Shown one piece after another: positions 20,492 through 60,443 of a stretch of DNA of 62,140 bases (position 1 is its first letter; the number at the start of each line of letters is the position of its first letter). The stretch comes from Thermodesulfobacteriota bacterium (lineage in GTDB: Bacteria; Desulfobacterota; UBA8473). Made by a program: the position numbers and the translations under genes. The notes under the pieces were generated by a model. That model did not search any database. It was not told where the DNA came from and worked only from the letters and a program-made list of their open reading frames with translations. The DNA is taken from the NCBI GenBank assembly GCA_040757775.1, contig JBFLWQ010000021.1, forward strand, positions 1 to 62,140. The letters run 5' to 3'.

Positions 20492-23400
20492 TCAGGGATG
20501 GCTCACTACTGCCACTGGGAAATTTACATAACCATCAGGTGTATTTGTAATCGGATGCTGTGCCCCGTTGGTTATCTTCGGCACTGTCTCCGAGACATAA
20601 GTATCAAGCTCCTTCATTGAAACCTTGTTATCCTTGATTAAGTCAGCTTTCCCGCTTATCCCCTCAATTATAGCATAAGTAAATGCCCCATGTTTCCATT
20701 TGTCTGATTCCTGAGAAAGTTCTCTGCCACGGCTTGATGTGAATATCACTGCATTTGCCTCCTGAAGCTCCTTTACAAAACGATCATTATCAACACCCCT
20801 TGTCTTCTTTCCAGCCACACCTTCTGAGTGGCAGGTGTCTGCAAATATGAGTTTTTTAGACGGCAAATCCAGTATAGCCTTCAACTCCCTCCATGGTATA
20901 GCCTTTGATTTCTTTATCGTACCGTCATTCATTATAACTGCATCAGCAGGCAAAAAATAGAAATCTCCCCTATCATCATTTATCCCATGTCCCGCTATAA
21001 ACAAAAGGACAATATCATTTGCAGATGCCTTGCTTAAATAGTTCAGGTTATCAAGGATGCTGTCGTAAGTCGGCTTTATTGAGCTGCTGTCACTGATGAT
21101 AAGGCTGTTTATTTCACGGAATAATCTTCCCTTCTGGCTTTTGAATGCCTCAACAATCCCTTCTGCATCAGCAACTGCATAAGAGAGCGGGGTTAGGTTC
21201 TTGTCCTGATATTTGTTTATTCCTATGGAGAGTATCCAGAGGTTGGGAAGGATTGCTTCTGACAGGCGGGACGCCTGTCCTGCCACTTCAAGATATATGC
21301 GGACAGATTTCCTTCCTTCGGAAAAGCCATTGAATGCTGTTACCTCTATCAGATTCTCTCCAATGTCCAGACTGACAGGGATTTTTAAATCAAGGGTTTT
21401 CTTGCCTTCAGGTACTTCTATACCTTTGGGAGTGATTTCAATCCCCCTGATGTCATTGCGAGCCCCGACAGGTCGGGGCGAAGCAATCTCACTGCCTGTA
21501 ACCTGCCTCCCGTTTACAAAGACCTTTACCCTTTTTATTGTCTGATTTCTGTCTTCAATATAAAGGGAGACTTCAGCATCAGTTGAATTCATCTTTTTCC
21601 CGTCTTCAGGTGATTTGATAACGATGAACGGCGGCTCTATGTTCTGGATTGAAGCAACTGTAACAGCGGACTTTTGTTTATCAACCCCGAGAGTTTCTGC
21701 AATCGCTTTTTGTGTATCACCAAGCCTTAATGCTGTCTCAACTATCTGAGGCTTATAGAATGCTGAACGATACTGGTCTATGCCATAGACGTTATTGCCG
21801 ATGCGGACATTCAAATGTTTGTCGCCATTGGCAGAGGAGTTGTAATAGCCTTCGGGGGTGATAATGAGCCACTCGCCATTCCTGAAACTTGCCAGCATGG
21901 CAATTTCACTGCCGGTTGCCACATTCCACATCCTCACAGTGCCATCCCAGCTTCCCGAGTATGCGTAGCGACCATCCGGGGAAAAGGCAACCGAGGAGAC
22001 CCATGTAGCGTGACCCCTGTAAGTTCTTATCTCGTTTCCCGTAGAGATGTCCCATAGCTTAAAGGTATTATCTGTGCTGCCCGACAGCACGAGCCTGCCA
22101 TCCGGTGATAAAGCAATAGAGGAAAGGCCAGGATGTCTAAACTCCCTGACCACTTCGCCTGATGATATTTCCCAGAGTTTGACGGAAGCATCAGGGTCAA
22201 AGGGATTGAATACACTGCTGATACCTAATACAATCTTCCTCCCGTCCGGAGAATACAATGCCGATTTAATACTCATAGTTTCGAAGTCTTTTGTCGTATG
22301 TATGTCAAATGTGTTCAATTCTCTGCCGCTGTAAATATCCCACACTTTGAGGGCATAGTTCTCCCTCATTGGGTAGGGGCGAGAGTAATCTCCTGTACCC
22401 GCCGAGACGGCATACTTTCCATCCCGGGAGAATGCGACTGAAAAGACAGCCCTCGTCCCGACAAATGTCCGTATCTGGCTCCCTGTCTGAACATCCCAGA
22501 GCCTTGCTGTTTTATCAAAGCCGCCTCCCGAGAGGAGATATCTGCCGTTAGGCGAAAAAACGACTGAAGTAACCTCACCTGAATGTCCGATAAAAGTCCT
22601 TAGCTCTGTTCCAGTTATCGCATCCCAGAGTTTGAAATTCTTATCGTGGCTCCCCGAAACGGCGAACCTACTGTCAGGAGAAAAGGACAGCGAATTGATC
22701 CACCCCTCATGCGCTTTGGAAGTCCTTGTCTCCTTTCCTGCCGACATGTTCCAGAATCGGACGGTACCGTCGTGTTCCCCTGAGATGATCGCTCTGCCGT
22801 CAGGAGATACGGCAATGGCGGTAACGCCTTTTACCAGGCCGGAAAACGTCCTCAAAGTGTTTCCAGTAAAAGCATTCCATAGCAGAAGTTCCCTCCTTAT
22901 CGCGCTCAATACGTTTTTGCCGTCGGGTGAAAACGCAAGAGGAGTTCCCTTTTCATCATAGGAAAAGTTCCTCACTTCTTTCCCGGAGGCTGTCTCAAAG
23001 AGCTGGAGAGGCATTTTATAGCCACCCGACAGGATATGGCTTCCGTCCGGTGATATGGCAATATGCAGATAATCCCCCATCTGCTTCTGCCATAGTTCCC
23101 CCTCGGTATTTACCTCATAGAGGCTTAAATAGTTCTTCTCCCCATAACGCATGGTCAAAATGTATTTGCCATTTTGAAGAAGCGCTGCTGAAGCTACTTT
23201 TTCCTTCCCTGTAAAGCTTTTTACCTCCTTTCCCGTTGCTACATCCCACAGCCGTACCGTTCCGTCGCTACTCCCGGAAACGACCTGACGGCCGTTTGGG
23301 GAAAAACCAACTGAGTTGACAGTACCGATATGGCCTTTGAACGTCCGCACTTCTTCTCCAGTCGCAGCATTCCAGAGCTTAAGGGTAGTATCCTCACTTC

Positions 23401-23830
23401 CGGAAAGTACATGCCTTTCATCAGGAGAAAAGACGACCGATGCTACAGGGGCAGAATGACCGGAGAAGGATTTTATTTCCTTTGCCGTTGCAATATCCCA
23501 CACCTTAACGGTGTTGTCCGAGCCGCCTGTCAGCAATGAACGGCTGTCAGGTGAAAAAGCAGCACTTATGACCTTATCTGCCTCGCTGAAAAAAGCCCGT
23601 ATCTCCTTTTCCTTGGCAACGTCCCAGAGTCTGAAGCAGTACTCCCCTCCCTGCTTTGACAGGAAGTATTTTCCGTCAGGCGAAAAAAACGCAGTGTGGA
23701 TATCGCCTGATCCTGTGTGCCCCAACTGCACAAAAATCTCAGACTTTTCAGCGGCGATTGCGGGGTTAAAACCTGCTGCAATGGCAAAAAATAGTAAAGA
23801 CATCAGACCAAACCATTTTTGCCTTCTCAT
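20492..23830 (-). CDS. Exported WD40-repeat caspase (peptidase C14) protein
   Basis: A 1112-residue protein with a Sec signal peptide (residues 1-26, ending AIAA). Residues about 35-640 are WD40 repeats (typical unit: SVVFSPDERHVLSGSEDTTL, then KLWNAATGEE), probably two beta-propellers. A linker with Ig-like strands (about 720-840) leads to a caspase domain (about 860-1105) that opens LWILSIGINKY. The dyad is His948 in IAGHGIND and Cys1000 in FADTCHSEG. Two palindromic intergenic-type repeats are inserted in frame in the linker (residues 781-793 and about 850-857). It likely acts in the periplasm or outside; the substrate is unknown. Convergent with the RapZ-C/MurU gene. Confidence 0.9.
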   Translation of the reverse strand: MRRQKWFGLMSLLFFAIAAGFNPAIAAEKSEIFVQLGHTGSGDIHTAFFSPDGKYFLSKQGGEYCFRLWDVAKEKEIRAFFSEADKVISAAFSPDSRSLLTGGSDNTVKVWDIATAKEIKSFSGHSAPVASVVFSPDERHVLSGSEDTTLKLWNAATGEEVRTFKGHIGTVNSVGFSPNGRQVVSGSSDGTVRLWDVATGKEVKSFTGKEKVASAALLQNGKYILTMRYGEKNYLSLYEVNTEGELWQKQMGDYLHIAISPDGSHILSGGYKMPLQLFETASGKEVRNFSYDEKGTPLAFSPDGKNVLSAIRRELLLWNAFTGNTLRTFSGLVKGVTAIAVSPDGRAIISGEHDGTVRFWNMSAGKETRTSKAHEGWINSLSFSPDSRFAVSGSHDKNFKLWDAITGTELRTFIGHSGEVTSVVFSPNGRYLLSGGGFDKTARLWDVQTGSQIRTFVGTRAVFSVAFSRDGKYAVSAGTGDYSRPYPMRENYALKVWDIYSGRELNTFDIHTTKDFETMSIKSALYSPDGRKIVLGISSVFNPFDPDASVKLWEISSGEVVREFRHPGLSSIALSPDGRLVLSGSTDNTFKLWDISTGNEIRTYRGHATWVSSVAFSPDGRYAYSGSWDGTVRMWNVATGSEIAMLASFRNGEWLIITPEGYYNSSANGDKHLNVRIGNNVYGIDQYRSAFYKPQIVETALRLGDTQKAIAETLGVDKQKSAVTVASIQNIEPPFIVIKSPEDGKKMNSTDAEVSLYIEDRNQTIKRVKVFVNGRQVTGSEIASPRPVGARNDIRGIEITPKGIEVPEGKKTLDLKIPVSLDIGENLIEVTAFNGFSEGRKSVRIYLEVAGQASRLSEAILPNLWILSIGINKYQDKNLTPLSYAVADAEGIVEAFKSQKGRLFREINSLIISDSSSIKPTYDSILDNLNYLSKASANDIVLLFIAGHGINDDRGDFYFLPADAVIMNDGTIKKSKAIPWRELKAILDLPSKKLIFADTCHSEGVAGKKTRGVDNDRFVKELQEANAVIFTSSRGRELSQESDKWKHGAFTYAIIEGISGKADLIKDNKVSMKELDTYVSETVPKITNGAQHPITNTPDGYVNFPVAVVSHP
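21261..21279. repeat. Palindrome GACAGGCG-GGA-CGCCTGTC inside the WD40-caspase gene
   Basis: An 8-bp perfect inverted repeat with 3-base loop, read in frame as part of AGQASRLSEA at the junction between linker and caspase domain. It has the form of a REP-type intergenic palindrome. Confidence 0.7.
21452..21490. repeat. GTCATTGCGA...GAAGCAATCTC repeat inside the WD40-caspase gene
   Basis: A 39-base element with inner 8-bp arms GCCCCGAC/GTCGGGGC, read in frame as EIASPRPVGARND (residues 781-793). It has the same outline (TTGCGAG ... GAAGCAA) as the intergenic repeat at 33889-33967. Confidence 0.7.
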
Positions 23831-55918: not shown

Positions 55919-56269
55919 GTGAAACAGATTACGCTGAGAAGTATACCTGATGAGATTGAAGCGATGGTTAAGAAGGAAGCAAAAGCAAAAGGTTTAAGTC
56001 TTAATAAGGCTTTCATTACCCTATTGGAAAAGGCAACAGGTGTGAAAACAAAGGACAGAAAGAAGAAAGCGTTTTATCATGATCTGGACAATCTGTCTGG
56101 TGTGTGGTCAAAAAACGATGCTGCAATATTCAATAACAACCTTCAGCTACAGCAAAAAGTGGATGAGGAATTATGGAAAAAAACAAGGCGATTCTTGAGG
56201 AATTTCTTTCCTCTCCAAGGGTTAGGGTTGTGGCTATTGATGAAGAGACATCAGAAAGATATGCTGTGA
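55919..56269 (+). CDS. Antitoxin-like ribbon-helix-helix protein with out-of-frame tail
   Basis: Residues about 1-85 match antitoxins paired with PIN toxins (QITLRSIPDEIEAMVKKEAK, then HDLDNLSGVWSKNDAAIFNN and DEELWK). The expected stop after DEELWK is lost; the frame continues for about 28 unrelated residues that overlap, out of frame, the toxin remnant. GTG at 55919 is eight bases after a G-run; ATG at 55913 is the alternative. Confidence 0.75.
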   Translation: MKQITLRSIPDEIEAMVKKEAKAKGLSLNKAFITLLEKATGVKTKDRKKKAFYHDLDNLSGVWSKNDAAIFNNNLQLQQKVDEELWKKTRRFLRNFFPLQGLGLWLLMKRHQKDML

Positions 56270-56424
56270 TTGTTAATCATCTCAGGAAGGAAGGCACCCC
56301 GATACCTACCAATGATTTATGGATTTCTGCTTCTGCCATGCAGCATGGGTTAAAAGTTGTAACTACTGACAACCACTACCTGAAGGTTCTGCAGATCATA
56401 ACCGAGTATTATCAGGCAGACTAA
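56173..56424 (+). pseudogene. C-terminal remnant of a PIN-domain toxin
   Basis: An 83-residue frame containing FLSSPRVRVVAIDEETSERY, IPTNDLWISASAMQHGL and VVTTDNHYLKV, the second half of a VapC-type PIN ribonuclease with late acidic residues. The first about 50 residues, including the opening catalytic Asp, are absent. The junction with the antitoxin (near 56175) indicates an internal deletion that fused the two genes. Confidence 0.8.
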
Positions 56425-56516: not shown

Positions 56517-57977
56517 ATGAAGAAAATATCTGCATCCATATCTGCATCCATTTTAATTTTTGCTGTGATTATCGTTCTGGCAGGATGTGCAACGCCATTT
56601 ATAGATGCAGCATACAAAGGTGATATTAACACTGTAAAGGCTTTATTGGCTAAGGGTGTAAATGTGAACGAGAAGGATTCTGGGGCCAGAACAGCCTTGC
56701 ATCTTGCCTCCATAAATGGCCAAACAGAGATAGCGCGTATTCTGTTAGACAATGGTGCTGATGTGAATGCTAAGGCAGGGCCTTCACAACTTTTTGAACG
56801 GACATTAACACCGTTACATTATGCTGCGATGTCCGATGTTGACAATGTTGATATAGTGCGCCTTTTATTGGATAGAGGAGCTAACATAAATGCAAAATCT
56901 GATACGGGTCGAACAGCCTTGCATTATGCGGCAAATAATGGGCATGTTTATATTGTGCGTCTTCTAATAGATCGAGGTGCTAATAACAGCATTGCAGATT
57001 ATAAAAACAAAACACCTCTCATATTAGCTCAAGAAAAAGGCTATACGATAATTGTCCGCTTGCTTACCGATACTGAAGAGGCACGCTACAAGAAAATTCT
57101 GGCAAAAGAAGAGACACCTAGTGTTTCGGGTTCCTTTGAAAAAGCCTTTGCTCCATCCGTTCAAACTGATGTTGACGAACTTCCTGCAATAAAAGCAAAA
57201 CCCAACAAAAACTCCTACGCTATCGTTATTGGCATTGAGCAATACCGGCAGAAACTTCCCAAGGCTGATTTTGCAGTACATGATGCAAAGATTATGACAG
57301 ACTATCTCACAAAGGTAATGGGCTATCCGGAAGAAAATGTGGTTACACTTATAAATGACAGAGCATTAAAAAGTGACATGGAAAAATATTTTGAAAAGTG
57401 GCTTTCCAACAATGTTGAAAAAGATAGCACAGTCTTTGTTTACTATTCAGGACACGGTGCTCCGAACCCAAAGACAGGGGATGCCTATCTTGTACCTTAT
57501 GATGGAGACCCATCCTTTATTGACCAGACAGGGTATTCTATAAAAAGGCTCTATGAATCCCTTGGAAAACTTCAGGCAAAAGAGATAATAGTTGCACTTG
57601 ATTCGTGTTTTTCAGGGGCAGGTGGAAGGAGTGTCATAGCAAAAGGTGCAAGGCCATTGGTTATAACAATGGAAACTTTAGTAATCCCATCAAAAATAGC
57701 AGTCCTCTCTGCAGCATCAGGAGACCAGATAAGCTCTACATATGAGGAAAAAGGGCATGGTTTGTTTACCTATTTCATGCTTAAAGGAATAAAAGGGGAA
57801 GGCGATACCAACGGAGATGGAAAGATAGAAATCGGTGAACTGTTTAATTATATCAAACCGCAGGTGGAACTCATTGCAAGAAAGGTGTATAATAATGAAC
57901 AGTTACCACAAATGATTGCGCCCAATGAATTGATAAAACAGAGACTAATTGAAAGGCAGAGAATTGGAGAACATTAA
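56517..57977 (+). CDS. Ankyrin-repeat caspase (peptidase C14) lipoprotein 1
   Basis: A 486-residue lipoprotein: signal with lipobox VLAGC, lipidated Cys24, then Ala, which favours outer-membrane sorting. Ankyrin repeats cover about 30-190 (GARTALHLASINGQTEIARI and similar). A linker leads to a caspase domain (about 228-480) starting YAIVIGIEQY. The dyad is His313 (YYSGHGAP) and Cys364 (ALDSCFSGAGG). Near the end DTNGDGKIEIGEL is a canonical EF-hand-like calcium loop. It is the first gene of a three-gene run with a paralogue 29 bases on. Substrate unknown. Confidence 0.92.
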   Translation: MKKISASISASILIFAVIIVLAGCATPFIDAAYKGDINTVKALLAKGVNVNEKDSGARTALHLASINGQTEIARILLDNGADVNAKAGPSQLFERTLTPLHYAAMSDVDNVDIVRLLLDRGANINAKSDTGRTALHYAANNGHVYIVRLLIDRGANNSIADYKNKTPLILAQEKGYTIIVRLLTDTEEARYKKILAKEETPSVSGSFEKAFAPSVQTDVDELPAIKAKPNKNSYAIVIGIEQYRQKLPKADFAVHDAKIMTDYLTKVMGYPEENVVTLINDRALKSDMEKYFEKWLSNNVEKDSTVFVYYSGHGAPNPKTGDAYLVPYDGDPSFIDQTGYSIKRLYESLGKLQAKEIIVALDSCFSGAGGRSVIAKGARPLVITMETLVIPSKIAVLSAASGDQISSTYEEKGHGLFTYFMLKGIKGEGDTNGDGKIEIGELFNYIKPQVELIARKVYNNEQLPQMIAPNELIKQRLIERQRIGEH

Positions 57978-58006
57978 AAGGATAAAAGCCATTTAGGAGA
58001 TGGGGG

Positions 58007-59491
58007 ATGAAAAAGCTTGTCCTGAGTGTAACGAAGGAACTTAATGCATGTATTTTAATCCTTGCCGTATCAGGCTTACTGGCAGGGTGTGCAACACCGT
58101 TGACGGATGCGGCAAGGAGGGGCGACATCCAGCAGGTTAAAGCCCTGCTTGATAGCGGAGCTACGATCGACGAAAAAGGTGGTGAACCTTCTCGAACACC
58201 GTTAGCGTGGGCAATAGAATATGGGCATTTTGATACAGTAAAATTCCTGATCGAGAGGGGTGCAGATGTCAATCATTCTATGGGATGGGGAACACCTCTA
58301 ACTTGGGCCATAAAGGCTGGAAATATTAATATGGCAAAATTTTTGATTGAGAAAGGTGCCAATGTAAATTTAATTGACCGACAAATAACTCCTCTAATGT
58401 GGGCAGCGTTCTATAGAAAACCCAATATTATAGACCTTCTGGTGGAAAAGGGTGCCGATCTGGAATATGCAATATCTGCGTGCGCCACCAACAAAACGTG
58501 GTGGTATAAATCAACTGGCCAGGCTTGTGCTGCAACATTACAGCCGTTCAAGGCAAAACAAGATAAGATTGCACAGCAGAAAGAAAAGGAGCAAGAGGTC
58601 GCTAAGTCCAAAGAGATAGAAATAGCGAAGGCGAAAGAGATGAAGGAGATAATTAAAGAAGTTGTTAAGGAATCATCTATGCAAAAAACCGATTCTAAAG
58701 CCGCTCCTTCCATTCAGTCCGATATAGACAAACCCTCTTTCAGTCCGTCGGAGAGGATAATGAAAGATAACGATCTTGCAGTAATTATAGGCATTGAAGG
58801 TTATCAGAGCCTCCCGAAGTCCGATTATTCATACGACGATGCAAAACTTGTTGGTGATTATGTAAAGGCACTGGGCTTCAAGCCGAGAAACATAGAACTG
58901 CTTTTGGATGAACGTGCAACTAAATCAGCCATTGAAAAGATTATTAAAACATGGCTTCCAAACAAGGCAAAGCCTGAAAGCAGGGTATTTGTCTATTATT
59001 CAGGGCATGGAGCGCCAGAGCCAAAAACAGGTGATGCATATATAGTACCTTATGATGGCGATCCAAATTACCTATCTGATACAGGCTTTCCTCTTAAGAG
59101 CCTTTATGACAATCTCGGTAAACTTCAGGTTGCGGAAATAGTTATTGTCCTTGATTCCTGTTTTTCCGGCGCTGGCGGAAGGAGTGTTCTTGCAAAAGGG
59201 GCAAGGCCTTTGGTGATGATAAAAGATGGCTTTGTGTTACCTCAGAATATTGCAGTGTTATCTGCAACACTGGGAACACAGATTTCCACATCATCTCCGG
59301 AAAAGGGGCACGGCATATTCACATACTATTTTCTCAAGGCATTAAAGGATGGCAAAAAGACCATTGCAGAGATTTACGAATATATAAAGCCACTGGTAGA
59401 AGACGAGGCAAAACAAATCAATGTCCAGCAGAGTCCGGGCATAAATCCTGAACCGGAAAAGTTGAAGGGGAGGTTTGGGTTGAGGAAATGA
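58007..59491 (+). CDS. Ankyrin-repeat caspase (peptidase C14) lipoprotein 2
   Basis: A 494-residue paralogue of the preceding gene. Lipobox LLAGC with Cys28. Ankyrin repeats lie at about 33-150, then a long charged, Lys/Glu-rich helix (about 180-235), possibly a coiled coil across the periplasm, then a caspase domain from about 262 (LAVIIGIEGY). The dyad is His334 (YYSGHGAP) and Cys385 (VLDSCFSGAGG). The calcium loop of paralogue 1 is replaced by KDGKKTIAEI, so regulation may differ. GGAG precedes the ATG. Confidence 0.92.
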   Translation: MKKLVLSVTKELNACILILAVSGLLAGCATPLTDAARRGDIQQVKALLDSGATIDEKGGEPSRTPLAWAIEYGHFDTVKFLIERGADVNHSMGWGTPLTWAIKAGNINMAKFLIEKGANVNLIDRQITPLMWAAFYRKPNIIDLLVEKGADLEYAISACATNKTWWYKSTGQACAATLQPFKAKQDKIAQQKEKEQEVAKSKEIEIAKAKEMKEIIKEVVKESSMQKTDSKAAPSIQSDIDKPSFSPSERIMKDNDLAVIIGIEGYQSLPKSDYSYDDAKLVGDYVKALGFKPRNIELLLDERATKSAIEKIIKTWLPNKAKPESRVFVYYSGHGAPEPKTGDAYIVPYDGDPNYLSDTGFPLKSLYDNLGKLQVAEIVIVLDSCFSGAGGRSVLAKGARPLVMIKDGFVLPQNIAVLSATLGTQISTSSPEKGHGIFTYYFLKALKDGKKTIAEIYEYIKPLVEDEAKQINVQQSPGINPEPEKLKGRFGLRK

Positions 59492-59505
59492 ATTTTAAGT
59501 AACTT

Positions 59506-59542
59506 CCCCTCGCCCCCTCTTAAGCTAAGAGGGGGCGAGGGG
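59506..59542 (+). promoter_or_regulatory. 17-bp perfect hairpin between caspase 2 and the DUF4384 gene
   Basis: A 17-base arm starting CCCCTCGCCCCC and its exact complement flank a 3-base loop AGC. It lies 14 bases after the caspase stop and has no T-run, so it may attenuate or process the mRNA rather than end it, or be a dispersed GC-rich palindrome. Confidence 0.7.
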
Positions 59543-59588
59543 GGTGTTAAGAGGGGGATGAAGGAATTATTGAAAAGGAGTTACCAGG

Positions 59589-60443
59589 ATGACAAGAAAG
59601 TGGCAATTTGTTGTTGCAGTTATTATGTGGATGGCGATAACCTTTCCTGTGCAAGCCTCTGAAAAGCCTGTCCCTGATAAAAGTCTTCAGGGACAAGTTT
59701 GGGTTGAGACTGAGGGCGAGGCTGTTATGGGGGAATATGATACTAAAAGAGAGATAATGGAACGCGCAAAGAGGGACGCCCAGAACAAGGCAGTTGAAAA
59801 GGCAGTTGGCGTATTTATAAGGTCTCATACACTCGTCTCAAATAGCCAGCTTGCCGAGGATTTAATATATGCAGCAGTGAGAGGAAAGGTTGAAAAGGTT
59901 AATATTATTAAAGAGGGATGGGATGAGAAGGACAGAAATCTTTACAGAGTAAAACTAAAAGCCCTTGTCAAACCTGTCTATCCTGAAAAAGGCGAAGGCA
60001 TCTCATTGAAGGTTTCGCTCTCAAAGGCAGATTTAAAGGAAGGTGATGAGGTAAAGATATTTTATCAGGCTAATCGCGACTGCTATGTTTATATATTTTC
60101 TGTGGCTGCTGATGGGTCGGTAACACTCCTTCTGCCAAACTCCGTGAATCCAGACAATAGCGTGAATGCCGGCCAGGTATATGAATTTCCTGTTAGTGGA
60201 AGCAAGATCAAGCTTCAGGCAAGGTTTCTCCCTGGATATAAAGGTCCTGTTGCCGAGGAGAGGATAAAGGTAATAGCCACACGGCAAAAAGAGGAGATAG
60301 TACCTCTTGGTTTTCAGGAGGGTTTGTTCAGGGTCTTTGATGCAAAATCCACCGGGATGATAAGCGACCTGGTAAAGAGGCTTAACCAGTTGGAACTGTC
60401 TGACTGGACAGAGGCAACAACAGTCTACACACTAGGGCGATGA
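59589..60443 (+). CDS. Secreted DUF4384-domain protein
   Basis: A 284-residue protein with a Sec signal peptide (1-23, ending VQAS). Residues about 35-120 resemble the FlgT/LPP20-like N-terminal domain (RAKRDAQNKAVEKAVGVFI). A DUF4384 beta domain follows (about 130-215: KEGDEVKIFYQANRDCYVYI, FSVAADGSVTLLLPN). DUF4384 often accompanies secreted caspase-like or kinase-like signalling proteins, so it may be substrate, scaffold or ligand-binding partner of the ankyrin-caspases; this is inference. AAAGGAG precedes the ATG. Its end overlaps the convergent gene by 19 bases. Confidence 0.85.
   Translation: MTRKWQFVVAVIMWMAITFPVQASEKPVPDKSLQGQVWVETEGEAVMGEYDTKREIMERAKRDAQNKAVEKAVGVFIRSHTLVSNSQLAEDLIYAAVRGKVEKVNIIKEGWDEKDRNLYRVKLKALVKPVYPEKGEGISLKVSLSKADLKEGDEVKIFYQANRDCYVYIFSVAADGSVTLLLPNSVNPDNSVNAGQVYEFPVSGSKIKLQARFLPGYKGPVAEERIKVIATRQKEEIVPLGFQEGLFRVFDAKSTGMISDLVKRLNQLELSDWTEATTVYTLGR

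Follow-up and report, generated by a model that had tools for sequence, protein, structure and literature searches.

Predicted envelope caspases paired with a DUF4384 protein in a Thermodesulfobacteriota bacterium and its relatives

The 62,140-nt contig JBFLWQ010000021.1 (assembly GCA_040757775.1) of a Thermodesulfobacteriota bacterium, referred to here as the window, encodes two tandem predicted lipoproteins, P1 and P2, each composed of ankyrin repeats and a caspase-like Peptidase_C14 (C14) domain, followed by a predicted secreted protein, P3, which contains a DUF4384 domain (Table 1). The unit is conserved and uncharacterised, is predicted to be an envelope caspase module and is a variant among bacterial caspase homologues. 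The best explanation of the whole, which is given a probability of about 45%, is that the caspases face the envelope and are gated in trans by P3 through its immunoglobulin (Ig)-like DUF4384 domain. Most discussion of caspase relatives in bacteria treats them as death or defence enzymes of the cytoplasm, and a conserved caspase family that is exported, lipid-anchored and provided with its own partner would shift caspase proteolysis to the envelope. The pairing would also help to explain the role of the widespread DUF4384 domain, and it offers a clear, testable protein pair.

Linkage of C14 and DUF4384 genes

A sequence-only reading of the window had described an operon of two diverged ankyrin-C14 lipoproteins and a secreted DUF4384 protein that act together, and had named conserved synteny in relatives beforehand as its refutation test. 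The arrangement is borne out by the open reading frames (ORFs), Pfam matches and lipoboxes; all three ORFs are on the forward strand, with gaps of 29 nt (P1-P2) and 97 nt (P2-P3), and the synteny is conserved. The genome that contains the window has 13 C14 genes and only two DUF4384 genes, both of which adjoin C14, one in the window and the other, at C13, between two exported WD40-C14 genes. Eight of the nine DUF4384 loci in the genus adjoin C14, and neither C14 nor DUF4384 was found in three genomes from other genera of the family. In a phylum sample of 297 genomes, the sequence around 82 DUF4384 genes (69 loci) was surveyed. C14 lies within 2 kb of 38 of these genes (31 loci), compared to the 0.39 predicted by C14 numbers and genome size; the 31-locus count is the safer figure, since clustered DUF4384 genes are not independent. 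Unfused C14 and DUF4384 neighbours are on the same strand in 30 of 32 cases, and a further six cases are fusions; in fused proteins DUF4384 mostly stands on the C-terminal side of C14.

A single scan of named genomes using a profile of A-type P3 proteins detected 57 loci in Desulfobacterota, Nitrospirota, Nitrospinota, Deferribacterota and Nitrosomonadales records, most of which are metagenome bins where binning errors are possible. One relative, L135, belongs to a Seleniivibrio woodruffii bin. C14 is located directly upstream, within 1 kb, in 33 of the 43 named loci that have at least 1.5 kb of upstream sequence; the commonest C14-P3 spacing is a 4-nt stop/start overlap, and the spacing is within 100 nt in 31 of all named loci. 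In the phylum sample, strong A-type P3 matches are present in 10 genomes and strong lipoprotein-type C14 (lipo-C14) matches in 13, with both in nine (0.4 expected; Fisher p about 1.6e-13, relatedness not corrected), and in the tenth A-type P3 genome a TPR-PDZ-C14 gene adjoins P3. The named-genome contig set and the phylum set share some members (e.g., L112 and L043), so their counts are not summed. Functional linkage of the C14 and DUF4384 genes, as the sequence-only reading had proposed for the three genes of the window, is supported by conserved synteny and by the fusions and can be regarded as nearly certain. Strict pairing of subtypes was considered and rejected, with A-type P3 found beside lipo-C14 in 36 of 43 adjacent pairs, which is a tendency only; B-type DUF4384 proteins have a WD40 or other C14 partner in four of eight cases.

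Caspase domains and predicted export of P1 and P2

P1 and P2 match Peptidase_C14 (PF00656) with Pfam scores of 60.8 and 68.3 bits, respectively (cut-off 21.4), and Ank is also matched in both. The His/Cys dyads, which the first reading had reported as intact, are present in both proteins and invariant in 68/68 C14 domains of relatives, in the contexts YYSGHGAP (His) and LDSCFSGxGG (Cys). An AlphaFold2 (AF2) model of P2, with a predicted local distance difference test (pLDDT) score of 87.6, comprises the ankyrins, a long helix, the caspase domain and a disordered loop past the catalytic Cys, and the nearest solved folds to the caspase part (Foldseek) are MALT1 paracaspase (E 1.8e-11, about 20% identity), Geobacter GSU0716 and yeast metacaspase. 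P1 and P2 are highly likely to be active proteases. Residues D278 and D383, which are near-invariant in the C14 alignment of relatives, match the positions of the metacaspase/paracaspase S1 acids, and hence Arg/Lys specificity is predicted. Given this specificity, the RPLV motif in the disordered loop of P2, which is invariant in alignment A5, is a candidate self-cleavage site. In the C14 tree, P1 and P2 fall into separate clades (support 0.999 and 0.998, respectively), each of which extends across several phyla, and nine loci, the window among them, hold members of both, indicating that the P1/P2 tandem is an old, co-maintained pair.

All three proteins carry the export signals claimed for them. 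P1 and P2 have the lipobox LAGC, and P3 has an ordinary signal peptide (FPVQA/SEKP) without a lipobox; its earlier description as secreted stands, and that as a cell-surface protein is conjectural. A lipobox was detected in 36 of 58 complete caspase relatives (62%) versus 12 of 199 neighbouring genes (6%). Asp beside the lipid-bearing Cys is absent from all 36, as the first reading had noted for P1 and P2; this is compatible with the outer membrane, which had been suggested on that ground, without proving it, since the rule on Asp was derived in E. coli. A location in the envelope, outside the inner membrane, is predicted with high confidence for the caspases, and the outer membrane in particular is their probable, less secure, address. 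A Cys pair in P2 (159/174), considered as a disulfide sign of an oxidising compartment, is found in just three of 44 relatives, never one Cys without the other, and was set aside as too weak.

Ankyrins were detected in 27 of 44 relatives and none in 17, and their proposed status as the receptor of the system is therefore conjectural. Other N-terminal modules found in C14 relatives, which are swappable, include TPR, PDZ, thioredoxin/DSBA, laminin-G and CARDB. PDZ, thioredoxin and laminin-G modules are common in exported proteins and, with the FlgT/FlgP/Lpp20-type domain of P3 described below, they favour the envelope role that had been suggested. In three lipo-C14 genes (L149 4615-6087, L112 4427-5935 and L116 4531-5982) Pfam assigns nothing clear to the N-terminal half, which contains motifs such as IPLNIAILITD and is possibly a new module in place of ankyrins. 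The PDZ and TPR modules could also point to an envelope quality-control or housekeeping protease without a signalling or death role, in which ankyrin, PDZ or TPR modules capture substrates by a DegP-like logic, and the distribution over free-living bacteria (groundwater and sediment bins) would suit this; however, a housekeeping protease would not ordinarily be patchy in occurrence (C14 profile in 43 of 297 phylum genomes), present in tandem and often decayed, which makes this explanation improbable.

Table 1. Features of the caspase-DUF4384 unit (window positions) and of a recurrent gene in related loci
Feature	Position	Strand	Size or basis
P1, lipoprotein, ankyrin repeats (~30-190) and C14 caspase domain (~234-467)	56517..57977	+	486 aa; Pfam
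P1 lipobox Cys24 (LAGC/AT)	56586..56588	+	sequence
P1 catalytic His313 (YYSGHG)	57453..57455	+	invariant in relatives
P1 catalytic Cys364 (LDSCFSG)	57606..57608	+	invariant in relatives
P2, lipoprotein, ankyrin repeats (~30-160), long helix 168-225, C14 caspase domain (~257-479)	58007..59491	+	494 aa; Pfam, AF2 model
P2 lipobox Cys28 (LAGC/AT)	58088..58090	+	sequence
P2 catalytic His334	59006..59008	+	alignment of relatives
P2 catalytic Cys385	59159..59161	+	alignment of relatives
P2 disordered loop 387-405 with invariant R400-P-L-V, candidate self-processing site	59165..59221	+	pLDDT <50; alignment A5
P2-P3 intergenic region, strong hairpin at about 59500-59549	59492..59588	+	folding energy
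P3, predicted secreted FlgT_N/FlgP-like and DUF4384 protein	59589..60443	+	284 aa; Pfam, profiles
P3 N-terminal FlgT_N/Lpp20/FlgP-like domain, aa 37-130	59697..59978	+	family profile vs PDB
P3 DUF4384 domain, Ig-like beta-sandwich	60033..60287	+	Pfam; fold comparison
Nucleotidyltransferase-like gene	L013 5155-5649; L011 13437-13931; L096 4983-5468; L127 5094-5588; L150 3450-3776		

P3 and its possible roles

The C-terminal half of P3 is the DUF4384 domain (PF14326; 78.5 bits, cut-off 27), the fold of which resembles Ig/FN3-like sandwiches with Z up to 8.8. The N-terminal domain gives a sub-threshold match to FlgT_N (19.2 bits, cut-off 28.8), and a P3 family profile detects FlgP-type lipoproteins in the PDB (E 3.6e-5 and 2e-4), suggesting that it belongs to the FlgT_N/FlgP/Lpp20 group. 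A PDB fold search with P3 gave no single clear relative; FlgT and Lpp20 were not among the matches listed, and hence the link to them rests mainly on sequence profiles. Tip-alpha was found in this search (Z 7.2); a reference of PMC12222027 reports that it is structurally homologous to Lpp20. An SHS2-like fold is common to FlgP, Lpp20, FlgT and dodecin, of which FlgP and FlgT assemble into rings associated with the outer membrane (PMC12222027). P3 probably shares the SHS2-like N-terminal domain but differs from FlgT, FlgP and Lpp20 in carrying DUF4384, in lacking the middle and C-terminal domains of FlgT, and in its position outside a flagellar cluster. Elsewhere in the genome (G000 C27:30442-36187; L147), two FlgT_N proteins, the FlgT_N domain of which is related to the P3 N-terminal domain, are clustered with CsgG-like and FecR-like proteins and small lipoproteins.

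In the proposed mechanism, P1 and P2 would be paralogous caspase-fold proteases, exported and lipid-anchored, whose N-terminal ankyrin stalks may bind a ligand or an assembly partner and whose C-terminal domains would cut after Arg/Lys. P3 would bind them in the periplasm, its FlgT/FlgP-like domain serving for oligomerisation or envelope docking and its Ig-like DUF4384 domain gating the protease in trans, as Ig3 of MALT1 does in cis; activation would then involve proximity and self-processing in the loop past the catalytic Cys. Computation establishes the architecture, intact dyads, export signals, conserved linkage, fusions and folds; where such a module is located, what it cleaves and with what specificity, what triggers it and whether P3 binds and gates it are conjectural, and the role of P3 as gate or scaffold is offered tentatively. 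MALT1 provides both the nearest solved fold to the P2 caspase domain and a precedent for an Ig-like domain tied to a caspase, and fused DUF4384 is mostly C-terminal to C14, as is Ig3 in MALT1. MALT1 is, however, a cytosolic human protein with Ig3 in cis, whereas the Ig-like domain here is usually in trans and predicted in the envelope, and the death domain and Ig domains present in the MALT1 chain are absent from P1 and P2, in which Pfam detects Ank and C14 only. A more elaborate version, a periplasmic caspase cascade in which P1 and P2 act on each other and a ring-forming FlgP-like/Ig-like platform switches them in trans as a proteolytic alarm or death switch, is unlikely.

P3 could alternatively be a substrate, close to what the first reading had envisaged, with a cut between its two domains that frees a signal or alters the envelope. 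The strict pairing of the genes and a Lys-containing linker, KALVKPVYPEKG, which lies between the FlgT_N-like and DUF4384 domains and is kept in A-type P3 relatives, are in keeping with this, but the linker is different in B-type partners and the DUF4384-C14 fusions hold the domains in one chain, so that a substrate role is judged quite unlikely.

Several observations weigh against the proposed mechanism. About half of the DUF4384 genes have no C14 nearby, and certain C14 lipoproteins in the genome (C3, C11) stand without a DUF4384 neighbour, implying that P3 is not needed in cis. At one locus in the genus (L027), homology to the window begins within the final codons of P2 and continues across P3 and the gene after it, with the caspases lost, and at L095 an intact P3 follows a C14 C-terminal remnant. 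The P3 model is of middling quality (pLDDT 77.9), and the parallel with MALT1 Ig3 is one of fold class only, an analogy rather than homology. Export signals, lipoboxes included, were called using a simple script, not SignalP; 18 of the 22 relatives without a lipobox have a signal-like N-terminus, but this plain signal-peptide class has a 33% background, which leaves the lipobox enrichment alone as telling. Finally, P2 and P3 are split by a near-perfect hairpin (-42.2 kcal/mol, z -4.05) without a T run, in a gap wider than the -4 to +33 nt usual in relatives, and co-transcription of P3 with P1-P2 in the window is accordingly likely but not certain. The hairpin core has one perfect copy and one with two mismatches in the genome, the latter being its only copy outside this site, and a similar hairpin stands 5' of P3 in L027.

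The loss of caspases where P3 is kept can be read in two ways: P3 is an inhibitor that has outlasted the protein it targets, or it works in trans for further C14 proteins, whose genes are retained elsewhere in G004, the genome of L027; a DUF4384 protein surviving alone may have its own role or be an inhibitor. As an inhibitor or immunity factor, P3 would restrain caspases that are self-harming or aimed at intruders or neighbours. Besides the retention of P3 at L027 and L095, the tandem arrangement of C14 genes and the several broken C14 copies in the genus are consistent with this idea. Against it, C14 genes exist without adjoining DUF4384, the six C14-DUF4384 fusions would be unusual for an inhibitor, and no defence or toxin-delivery genes were recognised beside the window unit; this role is considered rather unlikely.

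Known systems and surroundings

Exported clan CD proteases are already known, as are C14-DUF4384 fusions and signal-peptide metacaspases. Gingipains (C25) and clostripain (C11) are secreted; like P1 and P2 as proposed here, they are Arg-type clan CD proteases outside the cytoplasm, but they belong to other families and lack ankyrins and such a partner. DUF4384 has been reported in caspase homologues or pseudo-orthocaspases, including 23 of 473 bacterial orthocaspases, in cyanobacteria (PMC8283722; see also PMC7475262). These proteins likewise unite a caspase domain functionally with DUF4384 but as one polypeptide, whereas here DUF4384 belongs to a separate operon partner with an added FlgT_N-like domain and the ankyrin caspases are lipid-anchored. 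Probable signal-peptide metacaspases, comprising 46 single-domain proteins with one N-terminal helix, were noted in 2012 (PMC3501461) and share with P1 and P2 the exported C14 protease; a lipobox, ankyrins or an operon with a DUF4384 partner are not described in the available part of that paper. No description of a C14-DUF4384 envelope operon was found in the accessible portions of the open-access literature.

A defence system akin to known bacterial caspase effectors is suggested by partial matches to the PADLOC 'caspase' and EACC1-type caspase models. The scores of P1 and P2 against the EACC1-associated model NF047832 (88.1 and 64.0 bits) are below the curated NCBIfam cut-off of 140 bits, however, the caspases carry export signals, no recognised defence system adjoins the window unit and no P3 relatives were found on viral contigs, so that this explanation is highly unlikely. 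A defence-island reading of the surroundings was likewise rejected, the neighbours being SbcCD-like genes, transporters, an ABC-class ATPase and a CoA-ligase-like gene, with only partial AAA matches, as was a viral origin.

Immediately 5' of the unit is a PIN-domain toxin gene (56173-56424, +) that, compared to a relative of 137 aa from the genus (L149 6146-6559, -), is short of about 57 residues past the first five (MEKNK); it looks like a decayed toxin adjoining a weakly recognised RHH antitoxin. The window encodes a second exported caspase of a different type (20492-23830, -), 1112 aa in length with WD40 propellers and C14, without a DUF4384 neighbour. A six-C14 array (L011/L012; G000 C13:48000-76000), mostly WD40-C14 with signal peptides, surrounds a B-type FlgT_N-DUF4384 gene, with several small exported proteins interspersed. 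In several genomes a nucleotidyltransferase-like gene (RYIVVGGxAVNLYGIPRMTYDIDL) is a repeated neighbour of C14 or P3 loci (Table 1).

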